Below are positions 6,180 through 22,940 of a DNA stretch of 22,940 bases, in pieces (the stretch's first letter is position 1; each line of letters starts with the position of its first letter). Under the pieces are notes generated by a model that worked only from the letters and a program-made list of their open reading frames with translations, was not told the origin of the DNA and did not search any database. Location: the IMG/VR virus record IMGVR_UViG_3300031886_000048, positions 1 through 22,940 of that record; one strand, 5' to 3'. Origin of the DNA: a virus. The position numbers and the translations under genes are program-made.

Positions 6180-6482
6180 ATGGCAAAATACAAAGTAACG
6201 CAATGGGTCACAGCAAGTGTACCAATAGTTTCATATGTAGAAGCAAATTCTGAAGAAGAAGCAGAAGAAAATTTATCAAATAATATTGGTGCTGGAGACT
6301 GGAAGTATAGATACGATAAAATTCATTATGGTGAATTGGAAAGTATCGAAGCAGAAGAAGTTGTTGACGAAGAATTGGACTTACCAGAGACTGGCGATAC
6401 AACTACCAGTGACGCTAGTCCAGAAACAGAACAAGTAGATGAATTAATAAGATTAAAAGATCTTATTAATTTTAGGAAGTAA
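6180..6482 (+). CDS. Small acidic protein, function unknown
   Basis: 100 residues, not recognised. The first ~55 look like a small alpha-beta domain (KYKVTQWVTASVPIVSYVEA, then an EEAEENL helix and WKYRYDKIHY); residues 55-90 are an acidic, Thr/Ser-rich tail (EAEEVVDEELDLPE). Start at 6180 follows TAGGA in a short leader from the late promoter at 6148. The stop is 5 bases before the gp13 start, so it is co-transcribed with gp13 and may be a virion or assembly factor (inference from position). Confidence 0.75.
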   Translation: MAKYKVTQWVTASVPIVSYVEANSEEEAEENLSNNIGAGDWKYRYDKIHYGELESIEAEEVVDEELDLPETGDTTTSDASPETEQVDELIRLKDLINFRK

Positions 6483-6487
6483 CAAAT

Positions 6488-7249
6488 ATGGCAAACGCAG
6501 AACTTCAAACTGAAAAGCAGAAATGCTTTGACTATGTACGTTTTAGTTTAGGTGACGGCATGGTTGATGTGGAATTAGATCCACAACATTATGATGCAGG
6601 TTTTAATAAAGCAACAGCAGTTTATAGACAACGTGCTTCAAACAGCGTCGAAGAAAGTTATGGCTTTTTAGAACTAATAAAAGATACACAAGAATATACA
6701 TTACCTGACCAAGTTACTGAAGTTAGACAAGTATTTCGTAGAACAATTGGTTCAAGTGACGGTGATGGTGCTAATAGTTTTGAACCTTTCGAAGCAGGTT
6801 ATGTTAATGTTTACTTGATGCAGGCTGGCAGAGTTGGTGGTTTAGCAACATACGAATTGTTTACACAATACCAAGAATTAACTGCTAGAATGTTTGGCGG
6901 TCATATCAATTTTACTTATAATCCAGTATCAAAGAAACTTACAATAGTTAGAAAAGTAAATTCTACAGGTGAATCTGTTTTACTTTGGTTATATAATCAT
7001 AAGCCAGATATAACACTTTTAAAAGATCATAGGACTCAACCGTGGATATACGATTATACAAAAGCACAATGTAAGTATATGCTTGGAGAAGCAAGAAGCA
7101 AATTTGCTACTATTGTTGGCCCACAAGGCGGAACTGCTATGAATGGTGATTCATTAAAGCAAGAAGCAATGGCTGAAATTGAAAAGTTAGAGCAAGATTT
7201 ACAGAATTACGTTGAAGGTAGTTTACCTTTAAGTTTTGTAATAGGATAA
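6488..7249 (+). CDS. 13: Neck protein, gp13-like
   Basis: 253 residues. gp13 forms the head-proximal neck ring that joins portal and tail. The family pattern of marine T4-like gp13 is present almost throughout: DVELDPQHYDAGFNKA (27-42), YRQRASNSVEESYGFLEL (46-63), EYTLP (69-73), QVFRR, FEPFEAGYVNVYL, GGLATYELF, RMFGGHINFTYNP (133-145), KLTIVRK, PWIYDYTKAQCKYMLGEARS (185-204), GPQGGTAMNGDSLKQEA (210-226). Start at 6488 has AGGAAG (6474-6479) 8 bases upstream, overlapping the preceding stop. It is followed without an intervening promoter by a zinc-ribbon frame in the same reading frame after its TAA stop. Confidence 0.9.
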   Translation: MANAELQTEKQKCFDYVRFSLGDGMVDVELDPQHYDAGFNKATAVYRQRASNSVEESYGFLELIKDTQEYTLPDQVTEVRQVFRRTIGSSDGDGANSFEPFEAGYVNVYLMQAGRVGGLATYELFTQYQELTARMFGGHINFTYNPVSKKLTIVRKVNSTGESVLLWLYNHKPDITLLKDHRTQPWIYDYTKAQCKYMLGEARSKFATIVGPQGGTAMNGDSLKQEAMAEIEKLEQDLQNYVEGSLPLSFVIG

Positions 7250-7255
7250 TTTCAA

Positions 7256-7414
7256 ATAGAAACCACAAAAGAAACAATTTGGCATTTTACTTGTAAAAGT
7301 TGTTATGGCTTTTGGTCTATTGCCACTATGGATGAGTGGATTCCTAAAAAATTATTTTGCCCACATTGTGGTAAAAAATGTGAAAACGATAAAGCAGTAG
7401 TATACATCTCTTAA
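7256..7414 (+). CDS. Zinc-ribbon mini-protein, probable non-AUG start
   Basis: About 52 codons encode a convincing double CxxC zinc ribbon: CKSC (codons at 7292 and 7301), then CPHCGKKC, with the aromatic core IWHFTC...YGFWSIATMDEWIP between. No ATG, GTG or TTG lies between the gp13 stop (7247-7249) and the first Cys; the internal ATG at 7328 would lose one CxxC pair. The ATA at 7256 is the best placed start, 9 bases after AGGA (7243-7246); ATT at 7277 is the alternative. The frame is that of gp13, so a stop-codon readthrough tail on gp13 is also possible. Short zinc ribbons of this kind occur in marine T4-like phages. Start choice is inference. Confidence 0.55.
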   Translation: METTKETIWHFTCKSCYGFWSIATMDEWIPKKLFCPHCGKKCENDKAVVYIS

Positions 7415-7464: not shown

Positions 7465-7821
7465 ATGATAAAAATAATAATGTGTGTTTTCATGCTTTTC
7501 GCAACATCAGTAAAAGCAGAAGTAGTCAACTTAATAGGTGATACGAGCTATTATGTTACTGTTGAAAAAGGACTTGAAAGCGACCTTAATTATGGATATT
7601 TTGGATCAAGTACACCGGTACTTGATGGCTTTGTATCTGTTAATCACTCAGCAACTTGGCAGTTATTTAACAATGAAGGTGATTTGCAAGAGTTTTCTAG
7701 TCAAACATTAGGTGTTAGCAAAGTGTTTGGAGACTCTGGTTTTAGCGGGTATGTCAGTAATACGTTAACAAATACATTTGCTAGAACTGAAACTTGGGTA
7801 GGAGTAACATACGCATGGTAG
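7465..7821 (+). CDS. Small exported beta-rich protein, function unknown
   Basis: 118 residues. Residues 1-18 form a Sec-type signal peptide (MIK, hydrophobic core IIMCVFMLFATS, cleavage after VKA). The ~100-residue mature part has alternating polar/hydrophobic strands, many Ser/Thr/Gly, no Cys, and ends ETWVGVTYAW, with a C-terminal aromatic residue like that recognised by the outer-membrane barrel machinery. It is short for a standard eight-stranded barrel, so a periplasmic or partial-barrel protein is equally possible. No family recognised. Driven by the promoter at 7429-7458 and predicted leaderless. Its stop overlaps the next gene's start region (ATGGTAG), so the two are coupled. Early expression of an envelope protein suggests a change to the host surface, such as superinfection exclusion (inference). 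Confidence 0.8.
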   Translation: MIKIIMCVFMLFATSVKAEVVNLIGDTSYYVTVEKGLESDLNYGYFGSSTPVLDGFVSVNHSATWQLFNNEGDLQEFSSQTLGVSKVFGDSGFSGYVSNTLTNTFARTETWVGVTYAW

Positions 7822-8300
7822 AAAAGATACTTTGGGTTTTAGGATTTACTTGTTTACTTGGATTAAGTAGAATAATACCACACCCACCTAACTTTACTCC
7901 AGTATTAGCAGTAGCAGTATTTCTTCCTTTAGTGCTAAAAAATAACATATTAGCAATTCCAGTAACATTAGGTGCTATGCTAATTGGTGATTTGTATTGG
8001 GGGTTCCATAGTATTATGTTTTGGACTTATGGTGCTGTAATATTAGCAACTCAATTGAAGTTTAAATATGTGTTTGGTAATGCTGTATTGGCTAGTATAA
8101 TATTCTTTTTAGTTACAAATTTTGCTGTGTGGAGTATGTTTGATTACTATCCTAAAACTTTAGAGGGGTTAATATTTTGTTATACCATGGCAATCCCATT
8201 CTTTCAGAATACTTTATTAGGTACATTATTTTATACTGGTATATTCTGGTTAATAAGATTACTTGTTTCAAAAAGGTTGACAAACGCCTATCCGTTATAG
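7815..8300 (+). CDS. DUF6580-like polytopic membrane protein
   Basis: 161 residues from ATG 7815, preceded by TAGGAG (7799-7804); the ATG overlaps the upstream stop (7819-7821). About five hydrophobic segments. The family signature is clear: SRIIPHPPNFTPVLAVAVFL near the start, MLIGDLYWGFHSIMFWTYGA in the middle, and FFLVTNFAVWSMFDYYPKTL followed by GLIFCYTMAIPFFQNTLLGT. I recognise this as the uncharacterised DUF6580 family of bacterial inner-membrane proteins, whose layout recalls substrate-binding (S) components of ECF vitamin transporters; that link is inference. A host-type membrane gene in a phage is likely acquired. It is co-transcribed with the exported protein; the promoter for the next gene lies inside its 3' end. 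Confidence 0.8.
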   Translation: MVEKILWVLGFTCLLGLSRIIPHPPNFTPVLAVAVFLPLVLKNNILAIPVTLGAMLIGDLYWGFHSIMFWTYGAVILATQLKFKYVFGNAVLASIIFFLVTNFAVWSMFDYYPKTLEGLIFCYTMAIPFFQNTLLGTLFYTGIFWLIRLLVSKRLTNAYPL

Positions 8301-8312: not shown

Positions 8313-8987
8313 ATGATTATTGGAATATGTGGGTTAATTGGTTCAGGTAAAGGCACCGTTGCTGACTACCTAGTAGATAACCATAACTTTATAAAATTAA
8401 GTTTCGCCGACAGATTAAAGGACGGTGTATCAACTCTGTTTGGTTGGGATAGAGCATCACTTGAAGGTGACACTGATGAATCAAGAAAGTTTAGAGAAAC
8501 AGTAGATGAATATTGGTCTAACGAAACAGGCAGAGAAATAACACCTAGACTTGTATTACAGTTATATGGAACTGAATGTTTAAGACGAGGATTTTTTGAT
8601 GGTATTTGGGTTAGTTTAGTTAAACAACAAATATTAGAAAATCCTAATAAAAACTTTGTAATACCTGACTGTAGATTCTTTAATGAACTCGAAATGGTTA
8701 AAGGGCTTAAAGGGTATACTTGGGAAGTGTGGAGAGACAAAGAACCCAAGTATTGGAAGATGGCAAGTAAACTCAACAGAGGCTATGCTAATCCACCAGA
8801 AGATAATCCAGTAGCAAAACATCATCCAGATGTACATCGCAGTGAATGGCGTTGGGCAGGTTGGGATTTTGATATTTTACTTACAAATAAAGATACACTT
8901 AAAACGTTATATCATTCTATAGATCAGGTGTTAGATCACCAGCAATCTTACTCCACCCGGTCCGACCTAGAACCACTTTACAATTAA
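8313..8987 (+). CDS. 1: Deoxynucleoside monophosphate kinase, gp1-like
   Basis: 224 residues. P-loop GLIGSGKGT (7-15) opens a P-loop kinase fold, followed by KLSFADRLKDGV (28-39), LQLYGTECLRR (82-92) and FVIPDCRFFNELEMV (114-128), the order seen in T4 gp1 dNMP kinase, which phosphorylates dNMPs to feed phage DNA synthesis. The insertion VHRSEWRWAGWDFDILLTN precedes the final helix. Start at 8313 is set by the promoter at 8277-8306: the A of the ATG is the expected first transcribed base. The 3' end overlaps the convergent HNH-like gene by 71 bases. Expression from a sigma70-type promoter fits an early nucleotide-metabolism role. Confidence 0.85.
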   Translation: MIIGICGLIGSGKGTVADYLVDNHNFIKLSFADRLKDGVSTLFGWDRASLEGDTDESRKFRETVDEYWSNETGREITPRLVLQLYGTECLRRGFFDGIWVSLVKQQILENPNKNFVIPDCRFFNELEMVKGLKGYTWEVWRDKEPKYWKMASKLNRGYANPPEDNPVAKHHPDVHRSEWRWAGWDFDILLTNKDTLKTLYHSIDQVLDHQQSYSTRSDLEPLYN

Positions 8988-9249
8988 GGCAAATAGACTT
9001 AAGATTAGACATTCTTGTATTTGCTTTATTCCCATCTAAATACCATATTAAAAAACTTTCAGGATATTTACTTTGATATCCACAATGATCACAAGTATCT
9101 TTTTTAATATATCCGTGTACTTTAAAAGGGTTAGGCTTCTTTTGTTGCCGTAGGCAACTATCACAAAACCTACGATAGTAAGTTTTTCCTTTTCTATTGT
9201 AATTTATTGCCGCTGGAGCGTTACAAGTTATACATACTGGCCTACTCAT
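8917..9249 (-). CDS. Zinc-finger protein with degenerate HNH-nuclease motif
   Basis: 110 residues with four Cys pairs: C6/C9 and C29/C32 form one zinc site, C53/C56 and C87/C90 a second. The second half has the HNH skeleton (CDHCG, then LDGNKANTRMSNLKSICLNC, with the DGN and the two Asn), but the His expected just before the (I/V/L)-D-G-N stretch is Tyr70. The protein resembles a small HNH-like family common in marine T4-like phages (opening MSRPxCxxC). Loss of the His suggests a DNA-binding rather than cutting role, though a shifted catalytic residue cannot be excluded. Predicted leaderless: TATAAATA ends 5 bases before its ATG. Its 3' end overlaps the dNMP kinase gene. Confidence 0.82.
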   Translation of the reverse strand: MSRPVCITCNAPAAINYNRKGKTYYRRFCDSCLRQQKKPNPFKVHGYIKKDTCDHCGYQSKYPESFLIWYLDGNKANTRMSNLKSICLNCKVVLGRTGWSKIAGDLTPDL

Positions 9250-9254
9250 ACGAG

Positions 9255-9262
9255 TATTTATA
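9255..9262 (-). promoter_or_regulatory. Perfect T4-type late -10 element, leaderless arrangement
   Basis: TATAAATA on the minus strand, identical to the T4 late consensus, followed by CTCGT and then the ATG at 9249. With T4 spacing the transcript begins at the A of the ATG. Confidence 0.8.
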
Positions 9263-9269
9263 CGGTGGT

Positions 9270-9285
9270 GCCCTTTATAAAGGGC
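9270..9285. other. 16-base perfect palindrome
   Basis: GCCCTTTATAAAGGGC reads the same on both strands and can form a tight GC-capped hairpin between the divergent late promoters of the HNH-like gene and gp18. No T-run follows directly; six T at 9299-9304 are 14 bases away, so it is a poor terminator. It could be a protein-binding site. Confidence 0.5.
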
Positions 9286-9314
9286 ATTGATTTCGACGTT
9301 TTTTAGTAGATATC

Positions 9315-9322
9315 GCTAAATA
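9315..9322 (+). promoter_or_regulatory. Late promoter for gp18
   Basis: GCTAAATA with predicted start near 9328 and a 41-base leader. The leader holds an 8-bp A/T stem (AATTTAAA 9334-9341 / TTTAAATT 9345-9352, loop CTT) just before the Shine-Dalgarno AGGAG (9354-9358). Confidence 0.75.
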
Positions 9323-9368
9323 CAATGTATAATAATTTAAACTTTTTAAATTTAGGAGACGAAATAAA

Positions 9369-12300
9369 ATGGCACTTATATCACCAGGCATAGATGTTAC
9401 AATAACAGACGAATCGCAATACGCTCCAACGGCAGTTGGCACGATTCCTTTGATTGTTGTCGCTACGGCCCAAGACAAAACTAGTGGTACAAGCACAGCA
9501 ACAGCGGCTGGTACAACTAAAGCAAATGCGGACAAAACATTTTTAATTGGTTCGCAAAGAGAGTTGGTAACAACTTACGGAGAACCAACTTTTTATAAAA
9601 ACACAAGCGGAACAGCACTACATGGTAGTGAAGTTAATGAATACGGACTTATGGCGGCCTATAGTGTATTAGGTATTAGTAATAGGGCGTATGTATTAAG
9701 AGCAGATGTTGACTTAGGTCAATTATCAACGTCAGCAGGTAGACCAACAGGCGCACCTGTGGCAGGTACACAATGGTTTGATACCGGTAAAACATTATTT
9801 GGTGTTCAAGTATGGAATGCTTCTACACAGAAGTTTGCTAACGTAATACCAAGTGTAATTACTGATGCTAACGATATTGATTCTGGAGCACCTAAAACTG
9901 CTTATGGATCAATAGGTGATTACGCCATTGATGCTACTAATACAAAGAATCCACTTTTTTATAAAAGAACAGATAATACTTGGGTACAAGTAGGTAATAC
10001 AGCCTGGCAAGCAGGACACCCAACACATTCAGGAACAGAAAGTTCACCAGGACTAACAAATGGGCATACTGTTATAATTAATGGTAATACTATTACGTTA
10101 AGTGGTACTACTGTAACCGCGTTAGCAACTGTTATTAATTCTACAGCAGTAACAGGTGTAACAGCGGCGGTAGTTAATAATAAATTAGAACTTTATGCTA
10201 ATGCGAATGCTACAAATGGAGCAATAGTATTAGCGGCAGGTACAGGTACAATAATTGCTGATGTTGGACTAACAGCAGGAACTTATTATGCTCCTAAATT
10301 TGATGTACAACCACACACAAATATTCCAGAATGGAAAACAGCAGATACTTATACTAGACCAAGCGGGTCTGTTTGGATTAAAACAACTACACCTAATTTA
10401 GGTGCTAACTTTAGTCTTAAAACGTATAATTCTACTACTGAATTATTTGAATCAGTAACGGCTGGAGTATATAACAATGATGAATCAGCAAATTATAATC
10501 TTGATAGTGCTGGCGGTGGCTTAAATGTTGCGGCTGACACATTATATGTTAAGTATGATGCTGATGACAATGGTAGAGGAAGTTATAAATTCTTTAAGAG
10601 ACTTGTTAAAGGTGCCACAACTGTAACAGGAACAGCAAGTCCTAGTTTTACAAATTCAGACTCATTTACAATTCAAATGTCAGATAAGACGAGTACTTTA
10701 ACTGCCGCAACAACAATTACTATGGGCGGAACAGATGCTGAAGCATTTGTTACTGCTGTAACGGCAGGTGCTATCCCTAACTTAACAGTTTCAAGAGATA
10801 CTACTACAAATGCTATTACATTAACACACGATTTAGGTGGTGTTATTGTACTTAAAGATACAGGTGGTCATACAGTTGTAGCAGATGCTGGTATTACGGC
10901 TTCTTTAACTACAGCAAGAGCAGGCAACGATTCAGATATTATTGTATCTAATTGGCAGGCTTACACATATTCAGCAAGTTCTACACAACCAACAACAGAT
11001 CCAGCAGATGGAACTAAATGGTTTAATGCTTCTGTTAGTGATGCTGATATTATGATACATGATGGTACAACCTGGAAAGGTTACCAAGGTATTACTGATG
11101 CTAGAGGTTATGATTTATCAAACTGTTCACCAAATGGTCCGATGGTTTCGGCTACTGAGCCAACATTACAATCAGATGGTACAGCACTTGTACATGGTGA
11201 TTTGTGGATTGATAGTTCAGACCCAGATGTTTTTACAATATCTAGATGGCAAAGTGTATCAGGCACAGATAAATGGGTTGCTATTGATACAGCAGACCAA
11301 ACTACAGAAGATGGTATTTTGTTTGGTGACTTTAGATTCCACGATAGTGCTACTGATGATGTAACAACAGATACAATGACAACTGTTAAAACTTTGTTAA
11401 CAAGTGACTATATGGATATAGACGCTCCAAAGGCAACTTTATATCCAAGAGGTATGTTAGGATTTAACTTAAGACGTAGTTCTAACAACGTTAAAGAGTA
11501 TAAGAAAAATTATTTTAATGCTACTGATTATCCTGATGATACATTACCTACAGAAACAAATGCTTGGGTAACTGTTTCAGGAACAAAAACTGATGGTTCG
11601 GCGTGTGTAGGTAGATTCGCTCAGCGTAATACTATTGTATCAGCAATGAAATCAGCAGTTACAGGATCTGATGAGATTCGTGAAGAACAACGTAACTTTA
11701 ACATATTAGTTGCTCCTGGGTATTCAGAACTTATGGCTAACCTAGTATCACTTAATAATGAAAGACGTAACACAGGATTTATTCTTGGAGATGCTCCGTT
11801 TAGATTGGCACCGAATAGTACAGATGTACAAAATTGGGCTAAGAATACTAAACTAGCAATTGATAATAATGATAATGGTTTGGTTACAGCAGATACTTAT
11901 TTAGGTGTATTTTACCCATCGGGTAGAACTACAGATTTAGATGGAAATAGTATTGTTGTTCCTCCAACACATATGGCATTGAGAACGATATTACGTTCAG
12001 ATGACACTAGTTATCCTTGGTTTGCTCCAGCAGGAACAAGACGAGGTGGTGTAGATAATGCTACAGCATTAGGACATATTGATAGCGAAGGTGAATTTAA
12101 AACAGTTGGTATTAAAGAGTCTTTAAGAGATACGTTATATGAAAATGCGATTAATCCTATATCGTTCTTCCCAGGTGTTGGTATACTTAACTTTGGTAAT
12201 AAAACAAGACACGCGACGTCTAGTGCTTTAGATAGAATTAACGTAGCAAGACTTGTAGCATACATTAGAGAAAGATTAGGTGAAGTTACAAAACCATTTG

Positions 12301-14439: not shown

Positions 14440-14823
14440 ATGTCAAATAATTTATATGCTTCAACTAACGTAGGCCAAACAGTAGACAAAAAGTTAGGAA
14501 CTAGAAAGTTCTTTAATGGTCATTATGTTCAAAGTATTAATATTGATCCAAGCGAGCACCAAGCAGTAAAAAGTTTCTTCTTAACAAAAACAAATAATGA
14601 CGAGGAAACAGCAAATACTCTAACAGACAGTTTATTTGAAATAGGAGTCATACAAGAAATTAATGTTATGGAACTTATTGATCGTTTACAAACAGAAACA
14701 ATAGACGATATTCAAATAACATTAATAGCAATGATTAATAATGTAAGAAAGAAGACTAGTGTGTTAGGTTTTTCTACCAACAGAACACCAAATCCAGTAG
14801 TATTAAGGAATATTGTCGAATGA
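14440..14823 (+). CDS. Small virion-region protein, function unknown
   Basis: 127 residues from ATG 14440; an in-frame ATG at 14419 would overlap the tube-like gene by 17 bases and lacks a ribosome site. N-terminal MSNNLYASTNVGQTVDKKLGT looks extended; the rest is helical (SEHQAVKSFFLTKTNND; ETANTLTDSLFEIGVIQEIN; TIDDIQITLIAMINNVRKKT). Not recognised. Located between tail tube and gp4 genes and coupled to gp4 by an ATGA overlap, so a structural or assembly role is likely. Confidence 0.7.
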   Translation: MSNNLYASTNVGQTVDKKLGTRKFFNGHYVQSINIDPSEHQAVKSFFLTKTNNDEETANTLTDSLFEIGVIQEINVMELIDRLQTETIDDIQITLIAMINNVRKKTSVLGFSTNRTPNPVVLRNIVE

Positions 14824-15266
14824 TAGGCAAGGGAATTGCCCGCGGTCGATATACACTTAAAAATCCAGACAAATACGCCGGCACAAAAACACCAATTTAT
14901 AGATCCAGTTGGGAACACGCCTTTATGGCTTTCTGTGATAACAGTCATGGAGTTATAGGTTGGGCCAGCGAAGCAGTAAGAATTCCTTATAAAAATCCGT
15001 TAACCGGAAAGCGAAGTACATACGTTCCAGATTTCTTTGTTCAATATCAAGATGCTAAAGGCAAGAAGCGTTCAGAAGTAATTGAAATTAAGCCAAGTAA
15101 TCAATCTACAATGGAAGCCGCCGGTAAAAGTAAACCTAGACAAATGGCCGTAGTACAAAATATGGCTAAATGGGAAGCCGCAACAGCCTGGTGTAAGCAA
15201 AAACGTATACGTTTCAGAGTAGTAACAGAAAACGATTTGTTTCACCAAGGAAAACGCCGCGGCTAA
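14820..15266 (+). CDS. 4: Head completion protein, gp4-like (nuclease fold)
   Basis: 148 residues, close to T4 gp4 (~150). gp4 acts after packaging to make heads competent for tail joining. The order matches: opening KNPDKYAG...PIYRSSWEHAFMAF (15-38), VIGWASEAVRIPY (45-57), RSTYVPDFFVQY (65-76), EVIEIKPSNQ (86-95), KWEAATAWCKQKRIRFRVVT (117-136). D71 and E89-x-K91 form the PD-(D/E)xK nuclease core, with E32 upstream, as in the TnsA-like endonuclease fold assigned to this family. The start ATG shares ATGA with the preceding stop. The stop TAA is part of the late promoter at 15262-15269. Confidence 0.9.
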   Translation: MIGKGIARGRYTLKNPDKYAGTKTPIYRSSWEHAFMAFCDNSHGVIGWASEAVRIPYKNPLTGKRSTYVPDFFVQYQDAKGKKRSEVIEIKPSNQSTMEAAGKSKPRQMAVVQNMAKWEAATAWCKQKRIRFRVVTENDLFHQGKRRG

Positions 15267-15294: not shown

Positions 15295-15798
15295 ATGACA
15301 AAAAAATTAGAAGAATTACTTAATATTGCTCCTAATGACGATAGTACAGAAGTACTTCCTGAAGAAATTGAGCCAGCAAAATCATTAGAAGTAGTTGATA
15401 AAGTAGAAAAAGAATTAAAAGCAGTTGATACTATTGAATCCGCTTTAGCAGGTGTTGAAAATTTAACAGCAAATGATAAAGAAATGGATACTATTGCTAC
15501 TAAGGCCGAAGAAACATTTGATAACTTAATGGATTTGGGTATGAACGTAGAAGCAAGGTTTAGTGGACAAATATTTGATACAGCAAGTAAAATGCTAACT
15601 ATCACACTTAATGCCAAACAGGCAAAAATAGATAAAAAACTAAAAATGGTTGAATTACAACTACGAAAAAAGGCTCTTGATGCTCGAATTGATAGAGATA
15701 TGGGCAAGTTTGATGGCACATATCCCGAAGATGGCGAAGCAACAGTACTGAGTCGCAACGAATTGCTTGACAGAATTCTTAAAAAAGATAATAAATAG
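15295..15798 (+). CDS. 16: Terminase small subunit, gp16-like
   Basis: 167 residues (T4 gp16 is 164). Acidic N-terminal region (to ~60), a predicted long coiled-coil hairpin from ~62 to 130 (DTIATKAEETFDNLMDLGMN, then GQIFDTASKMLTITLNAKQA and KLKMVELQLRKKALDARI), and a C-terminal tail with SRNELLDRILKK that resembles the small-subunit C-terminus. The core motif, A/S-E-x-F-x-x-L ... R-x-x-x-V/I-x-x-x-L-x-x-x-L-x-x-N, fits gp16, which forms a ring regulating gp17 at packaging start. Identification rests on length, helix layout and position before gp17, not on a strongly conserved motif. Late promoter upstream. Confidence 0.75.
   Translation: MTKKLEELLNIAPNDDSTEVLPEEIEPAKSLEVVDKVEKELKAVDTIESALAGVENLTANDKEMDTIATKAEETFDNLMDLGMNVEARFSGQIFDTASKMLTITLNAKQAKIDKKLKMVELQLRKKALDARIDRDMGKFDGTYPEDGEATVLSRNELLDRILKKDNK
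15790..15797 (+). promoter_or_regulatory. Late promoter overlapping the gp16 stop codon
   Basis: AATAAATA; its last two bases are part of the gp16 TAG stop (15796-15798). Predicted start near 15803, leaving a 19-base leader with GGGAG (15811-15815) 6 bases before the ATG at 15822. Confidence 0.7.
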
Positions 15799-15821
15799 TT
15801 ATAATACAATGGGAGATTAAA

Positions 15822-16376
15822 ATGAAATTATTTAATGAATACTTGGTAGAGGCAGAGTCAGTAAAAGAATATAAATTCAAGGTTAAATTGGCCATGAAAG
15901 CCGAGCCAGAATTAATGGATCTTATTGAAAGAGTGCTAGGCAAGTATGATGTTAAGGATATTACATCTCCTAAACAAACACCAATTCAAGAACATCCAAT
16001 GGACTTTCAAAATCTTCGTAATAGCGAAGTAACAATTTTTGAAGTTACATTAACATATCCAAGCACACCACAAATTGTACACGCTGATTTAGTAAATTTA
16101 GCAGGTATTCCTGGTAATCACGTAGTTGTTATTAACAGCGATCATCCAGAAGAAGTTGCTAGAGAAGAATCAGTAAAAGCACAAGGTGAGGATTATGTAG
16201 CAAATCTTGGATCAGAATATGCTTCGGGTGAAGCACCAGCAGAATCTAAATTAGGTTTCTTTAAAGAACTAACAAAAGAAACACCTGACATAGAAATTGC
16301 TGGAGGAAAAACAGAAAAGGCTAAAACAACTAGTGATTTGCCACAAGGTACTAAATCACCAGTGGCAGGGAGATAA
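15822..16376 (+). CDS. Conserved phage protein, function unknown
   Basis: 184 residues, not recognised. Residues 14-115 look like a small alpha-beta fold (SVKEYKFKVKLAM strand, PELMDLIERVLGKYDVKDI helix-strand, then EVTIFEVTLTYPSTP and a helix AGIPGNHVVVI). Residues 116-184 are an acidic, low-complexity, probably disordered tail (EEVAREESVKAQGEDYV; GEAPAESK; KTEKAKTTSDL). The opening MKLFNEYLVEA is a short helix. Strong GGGAG ribosome site; the following gene starts 2 bases after the stop, so they are translated together. Confidence 0.75.
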   Translation: MKLFNEYLVEAESVKEYKFKVKLAMKAEPELMDLIERVLGKYDVKDITSPKQTPIQEHPMDFQNLRNSEVTIFEVTLTYPSTPQIVHADLVNLAGIPGNHVVVINSDHPEEVAREESVKAQGEDYVANLGSEYASGEAPAESKLGFFKELTKETPDIEIAGGKTEKAKTTSDLPQGTKSPVAGR

Positions 16377-16378
16377 CA

Positions 16379-16999
16379 ATGGATAACAAATTAATAGATT
16401 TACACAAAGTTGCTGGGCTTTTTAGGGAAATCCAAGAAGAAGAGTTCGCTAAAACCGAAGCAAAAGAAATATCGGAATTTAAAAAAACAGTAGAAGCATT
16501 AGAAACTACTGAAGAAGTTGCTGAAGAATTAACCGCGGCACAAAAGAAATTGCCAGCAGGCTTACGTGATGCTATTGCTAAAAAGCAAGGCGATTCAACA
16601 GATGACGACGAAGTAGAAGAAAAAGTTGAAGAAGAAATAGCAGAAACTCCAGTAATTGCTGTAATTAAAGATACACCAGTTGCTGAAGAAGAAGTTGCTG
16701 AAGAAGTAGTAACAGAAGAGCCAGAAATGGTTTCTATGGATACAAATACTTTAGCACAAATTTTAAGTTTAGCAGGATTAACACCTGTTACAGATGCTGA
16801 TATTAATCAACCGGAGGCCGACGCTCAACCAGTTGAAGAATATTCTAACTCACCAGACGAAGAATATGCTGATACTGATACTCAACTCAATAAAATGTCA
16901 GGTGGAATTAATAGACCAAAGGCTATGCCAACCGTAGGTAATGATGGACATAACAGATTAGTTATGAAACTCAAAAAAGCATATACCGACATAGAGTAA
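16379..16999 (+). CDS. Acidic protein with Glu/Val repeats, function unknown
   Basis: 206 residues, very acidic. An N-terminal helix LIDLHKVAGLFREIQEEEF (5-23) is followed by AAQKKLPAGLRDAIAKK (53-69), a Glu/Val-rich repeat stretch (residues 78-117, units such as VEEEIAE, EEEVAEEVVTEE), then a short ordered helix MDTNTLAQILSLAGLTPVTD (119-138) and a polar C-terminus ending in the basic helix NRLVMKLKKAYTDIE. A similar EEVVTEE segment occurs in the 748-aa protein downstream. Scaffold or disordered assembly factors can look like this, but that is speculation. GGGAGA (16367-16372) lies 6 bases before the ATG. Ends before the terminator at 17021. Confidence 0.72.
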   Translation: MDNKLIDLHKVAGLFREIQEEEFAKTEAKEISEFKKTVEALETTEEVAEELTAAQKKLPAGLRDAIAKKQGDSTDDDEVEEKVEEEIAETPVIAVIKDTPVAEEEVAEEVVTEEPEMVSMDTNTLAQILSLAGLTPVTDADINQPEADAQPVEEYSNSPDEEYADTDTQLNKMSGGINRPKAMPTVGNDGHNRLVMKLKKAYTDIE

Positions 17000-17020
17000 T
17001 ATTTTTTACAAAACATACAT

Positions 17021-17048
17021 AGCCAGGTTGTAATATACCTGGCTTTTT
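17021..17048 (+). terminator. Rho-independent terminator before gp17
   Basis: AGCCAGGT (17021-17028) pairs with ACCTGGCT (17037-17044), 8 bp, loop TGTAATAT, followed by T44-T48. It closes the gp16 operon; the gp17 promoter starts 5 bases later. Confidence 0.92.
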
Positions 17049-17052
17049 CTTG

Positions 17053-17060
17053 AGTAAATA
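17053..17060 (+). promoter_or_regulatory. Late promoter for gp17, leaderless arrangement
   Basis: AGTAAATA, then CATAT, then the ATG at 17066. With T4 late spacing the transcript starts at the ATG; the intervening 5 bases hold no ribosome site. Confidence 0.75.
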
Positions 17061-17065
17061 CATAT

Positions 17066-18646
17066 ATGAACAAGAGTTTAGATGGCGTAATAATTAAAAA
17101 AGCCAATAGAGGGCAACAGTTTACTGAAAAGCAACTTGATAAATTTATTAAATGTGCTAATCCAGTAACTGGACCAGAGTACTTTCTTAAAAATTATTTG
17201 TTTATTCAACATCCTGTTGCAGGTAAACTTAGGTATAAAGCATATCCGTTTCAACATACACTTGTAAAAAGTTATCACGAAAATAGATTTAGTATAAATT
17301 TGTTAAGTCGCCAAATGGGTAAAACTACAACAGCGGCTGGATACTTATTATGGTATGCTATGTTTATTCCTGATAGTGTAATATTAGTTGCGGCACATAA
17401 ACACGCCGGTGCTCAAGAAATTATGCAACGTGTTAGGTACGGATATGAACTTTGCCCTGATTATATTAGAGCAGGTGTTACAAACTACAATAGAGGATCG
17501 ATTGAATTTGAAAACGGTAGTAGGATTGTATCACAAGCAACAACTGAAACAACAGGAAGAGGTATGTCCATTACATTACTATACTGTGATGAGTTTGCTT
17601 TTGTGCGAAATAATATAGCAAGAGAGTTTTGGACTTCCATTTCACCTACACTAGCAACTGGTGGTAAAGCAATTATTACAAGTACACCAAATAGTGATGA
17701 AGATCAATTTTGGTTAATGTGGACTGAAGCAAATAAAGTTTTAGATAATTTTGGTAATGCTGTTAAGGTTAACGAAAATGAGGTAGGTGTTAATGGATTT
17801 CATGCTTTTAAGGCCTTATGGGATGAACACCCAGATAGAGATAAAGAATGGGCCGATGATGAACGTGGACGAATAGGAATTGAAAGATTTAAACGTGAAC
17901 ACGAATGCGAACCAATTATATTTGACGAAACATTAATTAACCCAATTATATTAGCAAGTTTAGAAGGACAAGAACCTTTATATAAACAAGGACAAGTACG
18001 TTGGTACCAGAAACCTAAAAAAGGTAAAACGTATGTTGTTGGATTAGATCCAAGTTTAGGTACAGGTGGCGACTATAGTGCTATTCAAGTATTTGAATTA
18101 CCTGGTATGAAACAATGTGCCGAATGGCAACATAATAAAACAACAATACAAGAACAAATAACTATTTTAAAACAAATTACAAAATATATATTTGAGATAA
18201 CAGACGACAATAATAACATTTATTATAGTGTAGAAAATAACACATTAGGTGAAGCGGCACTTGTGTCAATAGCAGAACAAGGTGAAGAAACAATACACGG
18301 TTATTTTATGAGCGAGCCTGCTAGAAGTGGTCACGTTAGACGCTTTAGAAAAGGATTTAATACAACACATAAAAGCAAACTATCTTCTTGTGCCAAGTTA
18401 AAAGAGTTAGTAGAAAATCAAAAACTAACAATTTACAGTAAATCTCTTATCTCACAGTTAAAAACGTTTGTAGCAAGTGGTAATAGTTTTCAAAGTAAGC
18501 CTGGGGAACATGACGATTTAGTTATGGCACTTGTTTTGTCTTTAAGAATTGCTGTATTTTTAGGAACATACGACCCTAGTATACAAAAAGATATGAGATC
18601 AAGTGAAGATGACTATATCGAGCCAATGCCCTTTGTAGTCATATAA
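17066..18646 (+). CDS. 17: Terminase large subunit, gp17-like
   Basis: 526 residues (T4 gp17 ~610; here the N-terminal ~80 residues of T4 are absent). Two domains. ATPase: Walker A SRQMGKTT (81-88), Walker B LLYCDEFAFV (171-180, D175/E176), coupling motif TSTPNS (205-210). Nuclease of RNase H fold: D328 in VVGLDPSLGTGGDY, E390 in YYSVENNTLG, and D483/D484 in EHDDLVMAL. The enzyme pumps DNA into the prohead and cuts the concatemer at the end of a headful. All catalytic residues expected are present, so it should be active. Translation start is at the predicted transcription start (leaderless). A terminator isolates it from the upstream operon. Confidence 0.96.
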   Translation: MNKSLDGVIIKKANRGQQFTEKQLDKFIKCANPVTGPEYFLKNYLFIQHPVAGKLRYKAYPFQHTLVKSYHENRFSINLLSRQMGKTTTAAGYLLWYAMFIPDSVILVAAHKHAGAQEIMQRVRYGYELCPDYIRAGVTNYNRGSIEFENGSRIVSQATTETTGRGMSITLLYCDEFAFVRNNIAREFWTSISPTLATGGKAIITSTPNSDEDQFWLMWTEANKVLDNFGNAVKVNENEVGVNGFHAFKALWDEHPDRDKEWADDERGRIGIERFKREHECEPIIFDETLINPIILASLEGQEPLYKQGQVRWYQKPKKGKTYVVGLDPSLGTGGDYSAIQVFELPGMKQCAEWQHNKTTIQEQITILKQITKYIFEITDDNNNIYYSVENNTLGEAALVSIAEQGEETIHGYFMSEPARSGHVRRFRKGFNTTHKSKLSSCAKLKELVENQKLTIYSKSLISQLKTFVASGNSFQSKPGEHDDLVMALVLSLRIAVFLGTYDPSIQKDMRSSEDDYIEPMPFVVI

Positions 18647-18648
18647 TG

Positions 18649-18656
18649 GATAAATA
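18649..18656 (+). promoter_or_regulatory. Late promoter for the 748-aa gene, leaderless arrangement
   Basis: GATAAATA, then ATTAT, then the ATG at 18662: the same 5-base gap as at gp17 and the HNH-like gene. It lies 3 bases after the gp17 stop (18644-18646). No Shine-Dalgarno sequence is present. Confidence 0.75.
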
Positions 18657-18661
18657 ATTAT

Positions 18662-20908
18662 ATGGAACTGATTAATAAAATAGCCGACACATTATATCAA
18701 AATTTAGCCAGTAAATTCGGCGAAGTAAACATTGCCGACGAAGGTGCTGGTGCTGTATTAGAGTCCGAACAAGCAAGATTGTTTGATTTTAACTACATTG
18801 TTGAAGGAAATAAGTACGGTCCTGTTACAATTAGTATAATAGACCCTGCTAACTTTACAATTTATTTTGCTGAAAGTTTAAGTGGCGATTTACCAGAATC
18901 AATACAACGTAGTTGGTTTGGTTTTTTAAAAGAAATGAGAAAGTTTGCTAAAAGAAACATGATGAACTTTGATGTAAGAAACATAGGTAAGAATCAGTTA
19001 GATAAACGAGATTATGAGGCTATTACTAAAAATAGTTCTCAATACACAACGGATGAGATAACCATGGAATCAGTCAGCAGAATGTATGGATCAACAAAAA
19101 CAAGTTACCAAACAGTTGAATCAGCAAAAATTATAGTAAAACATAGATCAGCAGTAGACGAAGATAAACGAGGATCTAGAAGTAGACAAATACAAGCAAT
19201 CTTTATTGAAAATAGTTCAAAAGAAAGATTTAAATTTCCTTTCAAATACTTGCCAGGTGCTAGAGCAATGGCAAGACACGTCAACGCTGGCGGTAACCCA
19301 CACGACGAGTTAGGTTCACACATTGTAGAATGTGTAAAAGAAATGTATGACTTAAGAAATTTTGTTCGTAAACTAAACCGTGCTGACGGGTTTATTCATG
19401 AAGATTCCGCTGATATTATTTCTGATGCTAAAAAACGTTATAAAGGATTAAAAGAAACAGTAGCAACTCTTAGTAAACCAAAAGGTTATAAGATATATTC
19501 TGAAAACTTTAAACCAACAGAATCAACATATGATGAGTCAGATATTGATGAACTAAAAAGTAAGTTAATAAGAAATGTTGATCAAACAGAATTAGAAAGT
19601 TTATTGCCTACAGTACTTAAAGCAAGAAAGAAAGTACAAGAAGATATGGGACCACTACATGACATTATTCAAGGTAAGACTAAAATTGTTGTTACACCAA
19701 ATGAAGAAGAAGATGGTTTAATTAAAAAGCAATTTGAATTTGTTAAGGCAAATAAATTTAAAAAACCAAATGATACAGAAGGATTGGACCATACTGAAAA
19801 TCCAACACATTCGTTAATCAGAAGAATTTTAACTACAATTTCAGTTCGTACAAAAAATGACGATTTAGCAAGATCTATTTTTAATTTAGATGACAGTTTT
19901 GAAAATAAACACGATGCTCAAATGATGACAGCAGTTGCTAGTAAATGGTTAAAAGGTGATGTAGAAGTACAAGACTTTGATCCTAAATATAAGATGAAAG
20001 AACCTGTTGAAGAATTTGAGAAATGGGCAGATTCAGTTGTAAGAGAAGGTACATGGCATTTACCTACAAGTGATGAAGACGTAGCAAAATTTAAAGAAAT
20101 TATGGCAAAACCTATTATAGCAGGCGAAGATGGACAATCAGCCACTGATGCCATAGGCGAAGTATTTGGCGATGATGAATTGTTTGATAACTTATCTGAT
20201 GTTGATTCAAATGCTGATGCTAGACCGGTCATTTGGGAATGGTTAAAAATTGCGGCTAAGAAAGGCTACGATGACGAACATCAACCTTTTTTAGATGCTA
20301 TGTTGGCCACAGCAGAAGCAGTAGAAAAAGAATTACCAATTGAAGCCGAAGCGGCAGTTGAAGAAATTGAAGCAAGAGAAGAAGTAGTAACAGAAGAGAG
20401 CAACAGAGATTTAGCACTTAAAGATTGGTATCAAAACTGGTCTCATCTAACAGGCGGAAATGGTGATGAATTACCTAAAGGTTGGATGCTGTCTATAATA
20501 GATACTGGTATTACTACAGACGGAATTGAACAAAGCGAATTAGACATGAATTGGGAAGAAGATCGTTTACCAATTACAGATGCTATGAAAGATGATTTTA
20601 AATCTATTATGGGCAACGATGATGAAGATACAATGCGAGAGGCTTGGCAGATATTATCTGAACTTTGGGAAGCATATGAACCTAAAATGGATTGGGAAAA
20701 ACCAAATCCTGAAACAGTTCTTACAAAAGGAATGGCAGACGAACTTGCTAAAGAAATTGAAGATGAACTAGAAGATGAAGAAGAAGATACAGATGAGTCA
20801 CTAAATCATATGAAAAAATTAGCAGGTATCATGTCATCTAATAAAGCATTAAGACCTAAGAAAACAGAACACCAAACAACACCCAGATCTATACATAAAA
20901 GAAAATAG
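18662..20908 (+). CDS. Large conserved marine T4-like phage protein, function unknown
   Basis: 748 residues, no membrane segments. The N-terminal ~240 residues are best ordered: FDFNYIVEGNKYGPVTISII (41-60), ESVSRMYGSTKTSYQTVESA (135-154), VDEDKRGSRSRQIQAIFIEN (164-183), ERFKFPFKYLPGARAMARHV (187-206), a block I recall from marine T4-like phages without assigned function. The middle is helical and charged; from ~450 it becomes acidic with Glu/Asp repeats (EAEAAVEEIEAREEVVTEE; KEIEDELEDEEEDTDESL), ending in a short basic tail after LNHMKKLAGIM. Late, leaderless expression suggests a virion or assembly protein (inference). Position next to gp17 is unusual: in related phages gp17 is normally followed by gp18. 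Confidence 0.75.
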   Translation: MELINKIADTLYQNLASKFGEVNIADEGAGAVLESEQARLFDFNYIVEGNKYGPVTISIIDPANFTIYFAESLSGDLPESIQRSWFGFLKEMRKFAKRNMMNFDVRNIGKNQLDKRDYEAITKNSSQYTTDEITMESVSRMYGSTKTSYQTVESAKIIVKHRSAVDEDKRGSRSRQIQAIFIENSSKERFKFPFKYLPGARAMARHVNAGGNPHDELGSHIVECVKEMYDLRNFVRKLNRADGFIHEDSADIISDAKKRYKGLKETVATLSKPKGYKIYSENFKPTESTYDESDIDELKSKLIRNVDQTELESLLPTVLKARKKVQEDMGPLHDIIQGKTKIVVTPNEEEDGLIKKQFEFVKANKFKKPNDTEGLDHTENPTHSLIRRILTTISVRTKNDDLARSIFNLDDSFENKHDAQMMTAVASKWLKGDVEVQDFDPKYKMKEPVEEFEKWADSVVREGTWHLPTSDEDVAKFKEIMAKPIIAGEDGQSATDAIGEVFGDDELFDNLSDVDSNADARPVIWEWLKIAAKKGYDDEHQPFLDAMLATAEAVEKELPIEAEAAVEEIEAREEVVTEESNRDLALKDWYQNWSHLTGGNGDELPKGWMLSIIDTGITTDGIEQSELDMNWEEDRLPITDAMKDDFKSIMGNDDEDTMREAWQILSELWEAYEPKMDWEKPNPETVLTKGMADELAKEIEDELEDEEEDTDESLNHMKKLAGIMSSNKALRPKKTEHQTTPRSIHKRK

Positions 20909-20935
20909 CTCAATAATACCTTAGAGCGTTCATTT

Positions 20936-20943
20936 TCTAAATA
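20936..20943 (+). promoter_or_regulatory. Late promoter before the TctA-like gene
   Basis: TCTAAATA. Predicted start near 20949, leader 26 bases, with only a weak ribosome site (AAGA at 20965-20968) before the ATG at 20975. Confidence 0.65.
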
Positions 20944-20974
20944 ATTAATAGTAAACATATTAATAAGATATCAT

Positions 20975-22414
20975 ATGGATGCCATACTAACATTACTAGC
21001 AGGAACATTTTACGGATTAATAATAGGACTAATACCGGCCGCTGGAGCCACAACGGGGCTTGTAGCCTTATTTGGTTTTATAGGTTTCTTTGGATTTGAC
21101 CCATACTTAGGTGTAGTATTTTGTATGGCAGTTGTGGCCGCAAGTACAACCGGTGACACATACAGCGGAATACTTTTAGGAATACCTGGCGCCAATTCAG
21201 CCGCGGCAACAATGGTGGATGGACATCCTTTAGCACAACAGGGCAAGGCTACATACGCCTTAACATCAGCAATTACAACAAGCACAGTCAATGGTTTACT
21301 TTGGGGTACACTTACTTTTGCTTTATTGCCTTGGTATGCAAAACTTATAATGTACTTTGGCATACCCGAACTCTGGGCATTTGTAATGTTAAGTTTAGCC
21401 TGTGTAGGATTTGTTAGTAATAAATTTTGGGTTAGAAGTTTAATAGCAATCGCTGTAGGAATTTTTATAGGACTTATCGGAGTAGATCCTACTACTAATG
21501 TTGATAGGTTTACATTTAATTGGGATTATTTAGCAGACAGTATTCAACTTATGCCATTTGTTGCTGGTTTGTTTGCTTTCCCAGAAATTTTAGATGGATG
21601 GAGAAAAGGTAAATCAATAGCACCAATAGGAGAAGACCTTCATAGTAAACAAACTTGGGAAGGCATTAAAGCAGTATGGAAATATAAATGGGATGCCTTA
21701 CGTGGAGGAGCCATTGGAGCCTTTATAGGATTTCTCCCAGGCGTAGGTGGTGCTATGGGAGATTGGATGGCATATGGTTCAACAGTAGCAACACACCCTG
21801 AAGAAGAATTTGGCAAAGGAAATATTAGAGGAGTTATAGGTCCAGAAGGTGCTAATAATTCTCAAAAAGCAACATCAATGATCCCAACAGTATTATTTGG
21901 AATACCAGGAGCAAGTTTTGCCGCAGTATTAATGGCATTGTTTATGTATTTGGGTTTTGAATTAGGAGTTCCAGACCTTGCTAATGATACAAGATTTTTT
22001 GATAGTTTAACGTTTGGGTTTATGTGGGCCACAGTAATTGTTGGAATAGTATGTATTTTGTTCAACCGTTATATTGCCCTCATCACCTATGTACCGTATA
22101 AATACTATTTTCCACTACTAGTGGTCTTTATAGTATGGGCCTGTGTACAATATACAGGCGGTTGGGAAGATTATGCTATACTTGGCATTTGTACATTGTT
22201 AGGAGTACTAGCAAAGAAATACAAGTTTAGCAGACCTGCTTTGTTAATGGCATTTATTTTAGCAGATAAAGTAGAGGCATTAACAATACAATTAACAAGA
22301 CTTTATACATTTGATAAATTATTAGATAGACCATTATTTTTAATTTTAGTATTATGTATAATTGTGTTGTTTATTTGGGCAGTAGCAAGACGAAGTAAAC
22401 TAGAATATGCTTAA
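20975..22414 (+). CDS. tctA: TctA-like large membrane subunit of a tripartite tricarboxylate transporter
   Basis: 479 residues, ~11-12 hydrophobic segments, the usual TctA size. Both halves of the TctA repeat are visible. First: GTFYGLIIGLIPAAGA (10-25) and GDTYSGILLGIPGANS...MVDGHPLAQQGKATYAL (60-96). Second: GFLPGVGGAMGDWMAYG (252-268) and KGNIRGVIGPEGANNSQKAT (281-300) with LFGIPGASFAAVLM (307-320). TctA works with a small membrane protein TctB and a periplasmic binding protein TctC to import tricarboxylates with sodium or protons. Neither partner is in the window. In the first repeat the usual PG(L/I)G is PAAGA, a change at a substrate-binding loop. Base use matches the phage neighbours, so the gene is long established. 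Late promoter upstream. Confidence 0.88.
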   Translation: MDAILTLLAGTFYGLIIGLIPAAGATTGLVALFGFIGFFGFDPYLGVVFCMAVVAASTTGDTYSGILLGIPGANSAAATMVDGHPLAQQGKATYALTSAITTSTVNGLLWGTLTFALLPWYAKLIMYFGIPELWAFVMLSLACVGFVSNKFWVRSLIAIAVGIFIGLIGVDPTTNVDRFTFNWDYLADSIQLMPFVAGLFAFPEILDGWRKGKSIAPIGEDLHSKQTWEGIKAVWKYKWDALRGGAIGAFIGFLPGVGGAMGDWMAYGSTVATHPEEEFGKGNIRGVIGPEGANNSQKATSMIPTVLFGIPGASFAAVLMALFMYLGFELGVPDLANDTRFFDSLTFGFMWATVIVGIVCILFNRYIALITYVPYKYYFPLLVVFIVWACVQYTGGWEDYAILGICTLLGVLAKKYKFSRPALLMAFILADKVEALTIQLTRLYTFDKLLDRPLFLILVLCIIVLFIWAVARRSKLEYA

Positions 22415-22427
22415 TAGGAATATTAAT

Positions 22428-22553
22428 ATGGGTAAAAGAGCAGTACCAGGAATAATAACAAAAAGAGGTCAACCAAGATATAAAAAGAATATGAGTCATG
22501 GAACGTTTCGTTGTAAAAGACATCCTAACTCAAAAAGATGCCAAAATGGATAA
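22428..22553 (+). CDS. Short basic protein, function unknown
   Basis: 41 residues, 14 of them Lys/Arg, with two Cys (29 and 38) in FRCKRHPNSKRC; opening MGKRAVPGIITKRGQPRYKK. Not recognised. AGGA (22416-22419) lies 8 bases before the ATG, immediately after the TctA stop, so it is on the same transcript. Its stop (22551-22553) overlaps the next gene's start region as ATGGATAA. Confidence 0.6.
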   Translation: MGKRAVPGIITKRGQPRYKKNMSHGTFRCKRHPNSKRCQNG

Positions 22554-22710
22554 AGAAACATTTTTAGCAATTTTATTAACACCGTTTTTGTTTTTAGGAC
22601 TTGTTCTATTTTATATAATAATTGGTATTCCAATGTTGATAGCAGTATTACTAGATTCGTCATATAAAAAAGATGTATGGAAAGATTATAAAGTAATAGA
22701 AAAGAAATAG
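22546..22710 (+). CDS. Small membrane protein, function unknown
   Basis: 54 residues from ATG 22546; a longer in-frame start at 22498 would overlap the preceding gene heavily. One long hydrophobic stretch (residues ~6-38: FLAILLTPFLFLGLVLFYII followed by IGIPMLIAVLL), enough for one long or two short membrane helices, then a basic tail KKDVWKDYKVIEKK. Coupled to the preceding gene by overlap. Too short for TctB (~150 residues, four helices). Position after tctA makes an accessory role possible (inference). Confidence 0.6.
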   Translation: MDKETFLAILLTPFLFLGLVLFYIIIGIPMLIAVLLDSSYKKDVWKDYKVIEKK

Positions 22711-22762
22711 TTTGAGTTTTGTATAAGGATATAAAACTGAAACATTACATAGGAGAAAAACA

Positions 22763-22940
22763 ATGAGTTTTTTCAAAGGATGGCCTACTTTAACAGAAAT
22801 ATTTTTTGGTAAAAAAGTTCCGTCAAAAGTAGTAAAAAAAGTAGCACCTAAAATTGCTACAAAGACAAAGAAGACTACTAAAAAAGAACTTTCTAAACTA
22901 ACTAAAGTACAGTTAGAAGAATTAGGAAGACAAAAAGGTA
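22763..22940 (+). CDS. Basic protein with SAP/Rho-N-like helix, 5' part (runs off window)
   Basis: 59 codons visible, no stop. AGGAG (22751-22755) lies 7 bases before the ATG. A hydrophobic start (MSFFKGWPTLTEIFFG) is followed by a Lys/Thr/Val-rich linker and then ELSKLTKVQLEELGRQKG, which looks like the first helix of a SAP or Rho-N-terminal-like fold common at the ends of marine T4-like phage proteins. The full protein is not visible, so no function is given. Confidence 0.6.
   Translation, partial: MSFFKGWPTLTEIFFGKKVPSKVVKKVAPKIATKTKKTTKKELSKLTKVQLEELGRQKG

Follow-up and report, generated by a model that had tools for sequence, protein, structure and literature searches.

A phage TctA gene linked to a TctC-like binding-protein gene in marine viral contigs: a candidate two-component importer

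Introduction

The known tripartite tricarboxylate transporter (TTT) systems of bacteria (TctABC) have three parts, represented in Pfam by PF01970 (TctA), PF07331 (TctB) and PF03401 (TctC). To our knowledge, the phage transport genes described so far mostly supply a single part of a host system. Phage tctA has already been reported as a putative auxiliary gene: in 2014 it was recorded on SUP05 viral contigs as a "protein domain hit only" with its role unknown (PMC4164917), an observation repeated in a review (PMC6359870), and in 2020 tricarboxylate transport genes were described beside viral norB/nirK (PMC8115048). As at the present locus, these reports concern a gene of tctA type carried by marine viral contigs, and it may belong to the same gene family; the accessible text of PMC4164917 and PMC8115048 makes no mention of a paired TctC or of a virus-specific clade. 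Within the open-licence literature we found no description of TctC pairing for phage tctA and no report of phage-encoded solute-binding proteins.

Here we analyze a tctA gene on a viral fragment of 22,940 bases, referred to throughout as the window, together with its relatives on other viral contigs. A preliminary description of this DNA had presented the gene as a phage-borne TctA-like subunit lacking both TctB and TctC.

Results

The tctA gene lies at positions 20975 to 22414 on the forward strand and encodes a TctA-family membrane subunit of 479 aa that belongs to a virus-specific clade. Residues 4-424 align with positions 1-422 of the 423 in PF01970 (E 1.4e-96), and the score of 324 bits compares with a cut-off of 28.9, as expected of a full-length TctA subunit of a TTT system. 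The protein is hydrophobic, with nine predicted segments, and contains the repeat motifs GIPGANS, FLPGVGGAMGDW and NNSQKATSMIPTVLFGIPGAS; the identity initially proposed from both repeat motifs, length and hydrophobicity was therefore correct. The first-repeat loop PAAGA, which had been singled out as altered, is indeed present in the window protein but is not special, being ordinary variation within a clade that reads P-[A/S/G]-A-G-A at this position (PAAGA, PSAGA or PGAGA). The AlphaFold model of TctA was too poor for use (pLDDT 51), and the PDB copy searched contained no solved TctA structure.

The window comes from a T4-like/jumbo marine phage. Immediately upstream of tctA, on the same strand, are genes for the terminase large subunit (TerL, 17066 to 18646; closest named relatives PA5oct-type jumbo phages, 51%) and for a virion structural protein of 748 aa identified by its PHROG match (phrog_13484, 18662 to 20908), the latter ending 66 nt before the tctA start, which confirms the virion-gene setting noted earlier. 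Across the viral tctA loci, neighbors include terminase, DNA polymerase, clamp loader and further phage genes. The late-type promoter suggested for tctA is not supported: sites resembling the T4-late-promoter motif TATAAATA with at most one mismatch number 77 in the whole window, versus 90 expected, and are thus not above chance. Elsewhere in the window, the forward strand encodes a DUF6580 membrane protein with no PHROG match (7794-8300; PF20221, E 2.7e-37) and, amid tail genes, a protein with a TnsA-like endonuclease domain (14820-15266; PF08722, E 2.7e-22).

Two small ORFs, one encoding a membrane protein, follow tctA on the forward strand, as previously observed. A small basic protein of 48 aa (22407 to 22553) overlaps the tctA stop, belongs to no Pfam or PHROG family and occurs in some close relatives only (L006, L012, L016-L018). 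The membrane protein (22546 to 22710) has 54 aa when read from the ATG at 22546, or 70 aa from 22498 as originally listed; the former start is preferred because L084 carries a 46-aa homologue, which there overlaps the tctA stop. Neither protein is a TctB, and the 54-aa protein was not found beyond the closest relatives of the window; their suggested role as transporter partners is not supported. The start of a lysine-rich ORF of 78-79 aa (family F79; 22763 to 22940), preceded by an AGGAG ribosome site, is cut by the window end.

When 84,980 prokaryotic genomes were searched with aligned viral TctA sequences, a single match was returned: L082 (56% identical; 51% GC, versus 35% in the phages), from a marine metagenome-assembled genome. 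Directly after TctA in L082 is an ORF of 378 aa that resembles TctC-type binding proteins but has no Pfam match, and homologues of this ORF occur in nearly all viral tctA loci; the binding-protein gene was recognized solely via this neighborhood. Contig L001, which matches window positions 15419 to 22938 at 99.8% identity and extends beyond them, carries this TctC-like gene on the same strand from L001:7593. This start lies 596 nt after the tctA stop and corresponds to window position ∼23011, ∼70 nt past the last base (22940); contig L002 carries 219 aa of the protein. The reported lack of TctC was therefore a window-edge effect, and the phage need not borrow all its partners from the host, given that it encodes a TctC-like binding protein of its own, while it may still depend on host TctB. 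Searching 22 long viral records with the Pfam TctC profile had given no match, a misleading outcome as the gene is present there.

The two genes were consistently found together. Genes for this TctA are present on at least 345 viral contigs, and scanning with the binding protein recovered its relatives on at least 407. The binding-protein gene is on the same strand in 84 of 90 non-redundant viral tctA loci, and the other six contigs end 0-640 nt past tctA; every locus with room for both genes shows the linkage. The median gap from tctA to the binding-protein gene was -4 nt, i.e. the genes overlap. In the reverse test, TctA was encoded within 3 kb in 69 of 72 newly anchored binding-protein loci, the three exceptions beginning at a contig edge. 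All 22 long viral records contain the binding protein, a result that serves as a consistency check because many of these records supplied query rows. One locus, L134, has two different binding-protein copies (6214-7311 and 8833-9891), one on each side of tctA. A phage collection of 50,697 records contained nothing more than ∼32% identical to the linked TctA and binding protein; seven tblastn matches to TctA in that collection (27-32% identical) are probably bacterial DNA.

A Sec signal peptide, consisting of a hydrophobic leader and an AxA-type site, was apparent by eye and from hydropathy in 27 of 27 aligned rows of the binding protein, and would imply a Gram-negative host. Its AlphaFold model is two-lobed and confident (mean pLDDT 87.5). 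The top 11 PDB structural matches (VIA-align) were all TctC/Bug proteins, with Z 19.5-21.7 over ∼270 residues and rmsd 3.0-3.8, followed by a match at 13.2; Foldseek agreed, its top 17 rows all being TctC/Bug-type. The matches include malate, terephthalate or oxoadipate binders, and the two-lobed fold is common to the viral protein and to Bug27 (2qpq), BugD (2f5x), MatC (6hke), TphC (7ndr), TBP (8hk9) and Rpa4515 (5oei). The model thus has the TctC/Bug fold, and fold and gene linkage together identify a periplasmic TctC/Bug-type binding protein of a TTT system, encoded outside the window itself. PF03401 gave no match to it at E up to 1, and the best PDB profile match was BugD (E 0.028); bacterial relatives of the protein likewise score below the PF03401 cut-off. 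As PF03401 is not matched, we name the protein TctC-like, a divergent branch. Over ∼300 residues it shares 23–29% identity with the binding proteins encoded next to the closest bacterial TctA genes, and it is 11–16% identical to solved TctC/Bug proteins, a level at which ligand specificity is not transferable from the solved structures.

Within the 22 long viral records, TctB was matched neither by PF07331 nor by a profile of the fused TctB domain (the latter search lacking a positive control). The earlier statement that the phage has no TctB stands, as negative evidence only, and of limited weight because the records may be fragments, a positive control was lacking and PF03401 had missed a TctC-like gene that was present. 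Two families of small membrane proteins were tried as hidden TctB and rejected for want of profile similarity (probability under 1%). F46 is a 117-aa protein with two similar halves and no confident Pfam match (L084:10964-11317, its ATG right after the binding-protein stop), while F63 (DUF6552) has 73-89 aa and is encoded directly after the binding protein in several loci and one to two genes further on elsewhere.

Apart from L082, the nearest bacterial TctA proteins are 33-35% identical in the final alignments and 653-678 aa long, with an extra C-terminus that resembles TctB in profile comparison (94.8%). Bacterial TctA-TctB fusions of this kind (e.g. L141-L147) have an upstream gene for a 360-390-aa binding protein that is a full-length homologue of the viral one, but they keep the C-terminal TctB-like domain, whereas viral TctA has no such extension. 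Phylogenetic analysis placed the window protein inside the TctA family, with 85 viral TctA sequences forming one clade (support 92) to which L082 is sister; the stem that carries the viral clade plus L082 is long (2.0 changes per column, support 100) and adjoins the TctA-TctB fusion clade (98). Several long branches were flagged, and the unity of the viral clade is therefore firmer than the identity of its exact sister. Judged from these comparisons, the viral pair descends with the bacterial lineage of TctA-TctB fusion and binding protein.

When the window type was compared with a 92% relative, dN and dS were 0.05 and 0.47 for TctA (dN/dS about 0.1) and 0.06 and 0.37 for the binding protein, estimates that clearly point to purifying selection on both viral genes. 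The tctA gene was intact in every relative read, the binding-protein gene is likewise intact, and the decay that stops or frameshifts would have signaled was not seen. A bona fide viral genome, with terminase and virion neighbors, and dN well below dS are as expected of a viral auxiliary metabolic gene.

Further genes recur around the pair. In L082 (BQJD01000039.1, 3995-8813), TctA and the binding protein form a cassette with a sulfotransferase-like gene, a methyltransferase and a 2OG-Fe(II) oxygenase, and phages repeatedly have relatives of the first two of these three additional genes next to tctA. Families F5 (P-loop sulfotransferase-like), F2 (small methyltransferase) and F6 (unnamed) are found beside the pair in very different phages (e.g. 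L084:11314-13111; L114:10492-12417), which suggests a larger functional cassette. In addition, just upstream of tctA in the closest relatives of the window is a gene for an amino-acid ABC-transporter binding protein with a lipoprotein-like leader (L084:6384-7433, also L003, L083 and L085; SBP_bac_3; 4z9n, E 2.5e-104). This second phage-borne periplasmic nutrient-binding protein occurs in at least 102 viral contigs, mostly without TctA, and lies amid tail genes in the larger loci read.

Discussion

We consider it probable that tctA is one half of a phage-encoded TTT-type importer composed of TctA and a secreted TctC/Bug-type binding protein. The two proteins would work together: in a Gram-negative host, the binding protein would capture a small organic acid in the periplasm and hand it to TctA, the membrane translocation subunit, with translocation probably driven by an ion gradient. 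From the family, the substrate is likely a small carboxylate, and its uptake may feed the carbon or energy supply of the infected cell in nutrient-poor water. The importer would then do without TctB, use a substitute or rely on that of the host. The broader proposal, to which we give about an even chance, is that this is a virus-specialized, TctB-less, two-component secondary importer that is widespread across many uncultured lineages of marine T4-like and jumbo phages and allows infected cells to take up a specific organic acid from seawater independently of host TTT systems.

Other explanations were weighed against the same data. The three-part makeup of known TTT systems, and the failure of two profiles to find TctB in 22 long viral records, would both be accounted for if viral TctA and its binding protein joined a host TctB in a phage-host hybrid that redirects host uptake. 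We regard this as unlikely: in the nearest bacterial relatives TctB is fused to TctA, so hosts need not contain a free TctB that matches, and the marine phages with the pair are very different from one another and would have to meet a compatible TctB in each host. Alternatively, a short membrane protein of the phage, with its gene next to that of the binding protein, could stand in for TctB; F46 directly follows the binding-protein gene in relatives of the window, and F63 does so in several other loci. Yet both families match neither TctB nor the fused TctB domain, each is present in a minority of loci, and F46 lies apart from the pair in L087 and L135, which makes such a replacement improbable.

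We attach the same low probability to a non-nutritional role, in which the pair would mediate superinfection exclusion against a second phage or act as a signaling or decoy module. Placement in the membrane and periplasm fits that idea, and Bug proteins can act in signaling; however, the clade conserves the TctC fold in full along with both TctA repeat motifs, and exclusion alone needs neither. Finally, as many bacteria have TctA (87 of the 299 genomes sampled), the gene might be a chance-acquired bacterial transporter or bacterial DNA mis-binned as viral. That explanation is refuted for the family and very improbable overall, considering that the viral copies (85 rows) group in one clade whose stem is long, that a pattern scan of 84,980 genomes found one relative, that the neighbors are phage genes, and that dS is well in excess of dN.

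A membrane subunit linked to a dedicated binding protein is maintained on hundreds of marine viral contigs, and phages may thus bring along most of a nutrient-uptake system. If the importer reading is true, infection would change which dissolved organic compounds the cell takes up, and the viral pair would offer a simplified TTT system for probing the role of TctB. Compared with bacterial TctABC, the viral system likewise has a full-length TctA with both repeat motifs and an adjacent gene for a secreted protein of TctC fold. It differs in being phage-encoded, in having no detected TctB, in a binding protein that is beyond the reach of PF03401, and in its usual gene order of tctA followed by the binding protein. 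Cyanophage PstS is also a phage-encoded periplasmic nutrient-binding protein, and serves the ABC permease of the host; the viral TctA system, by comparison, also brings the membrane subunit.
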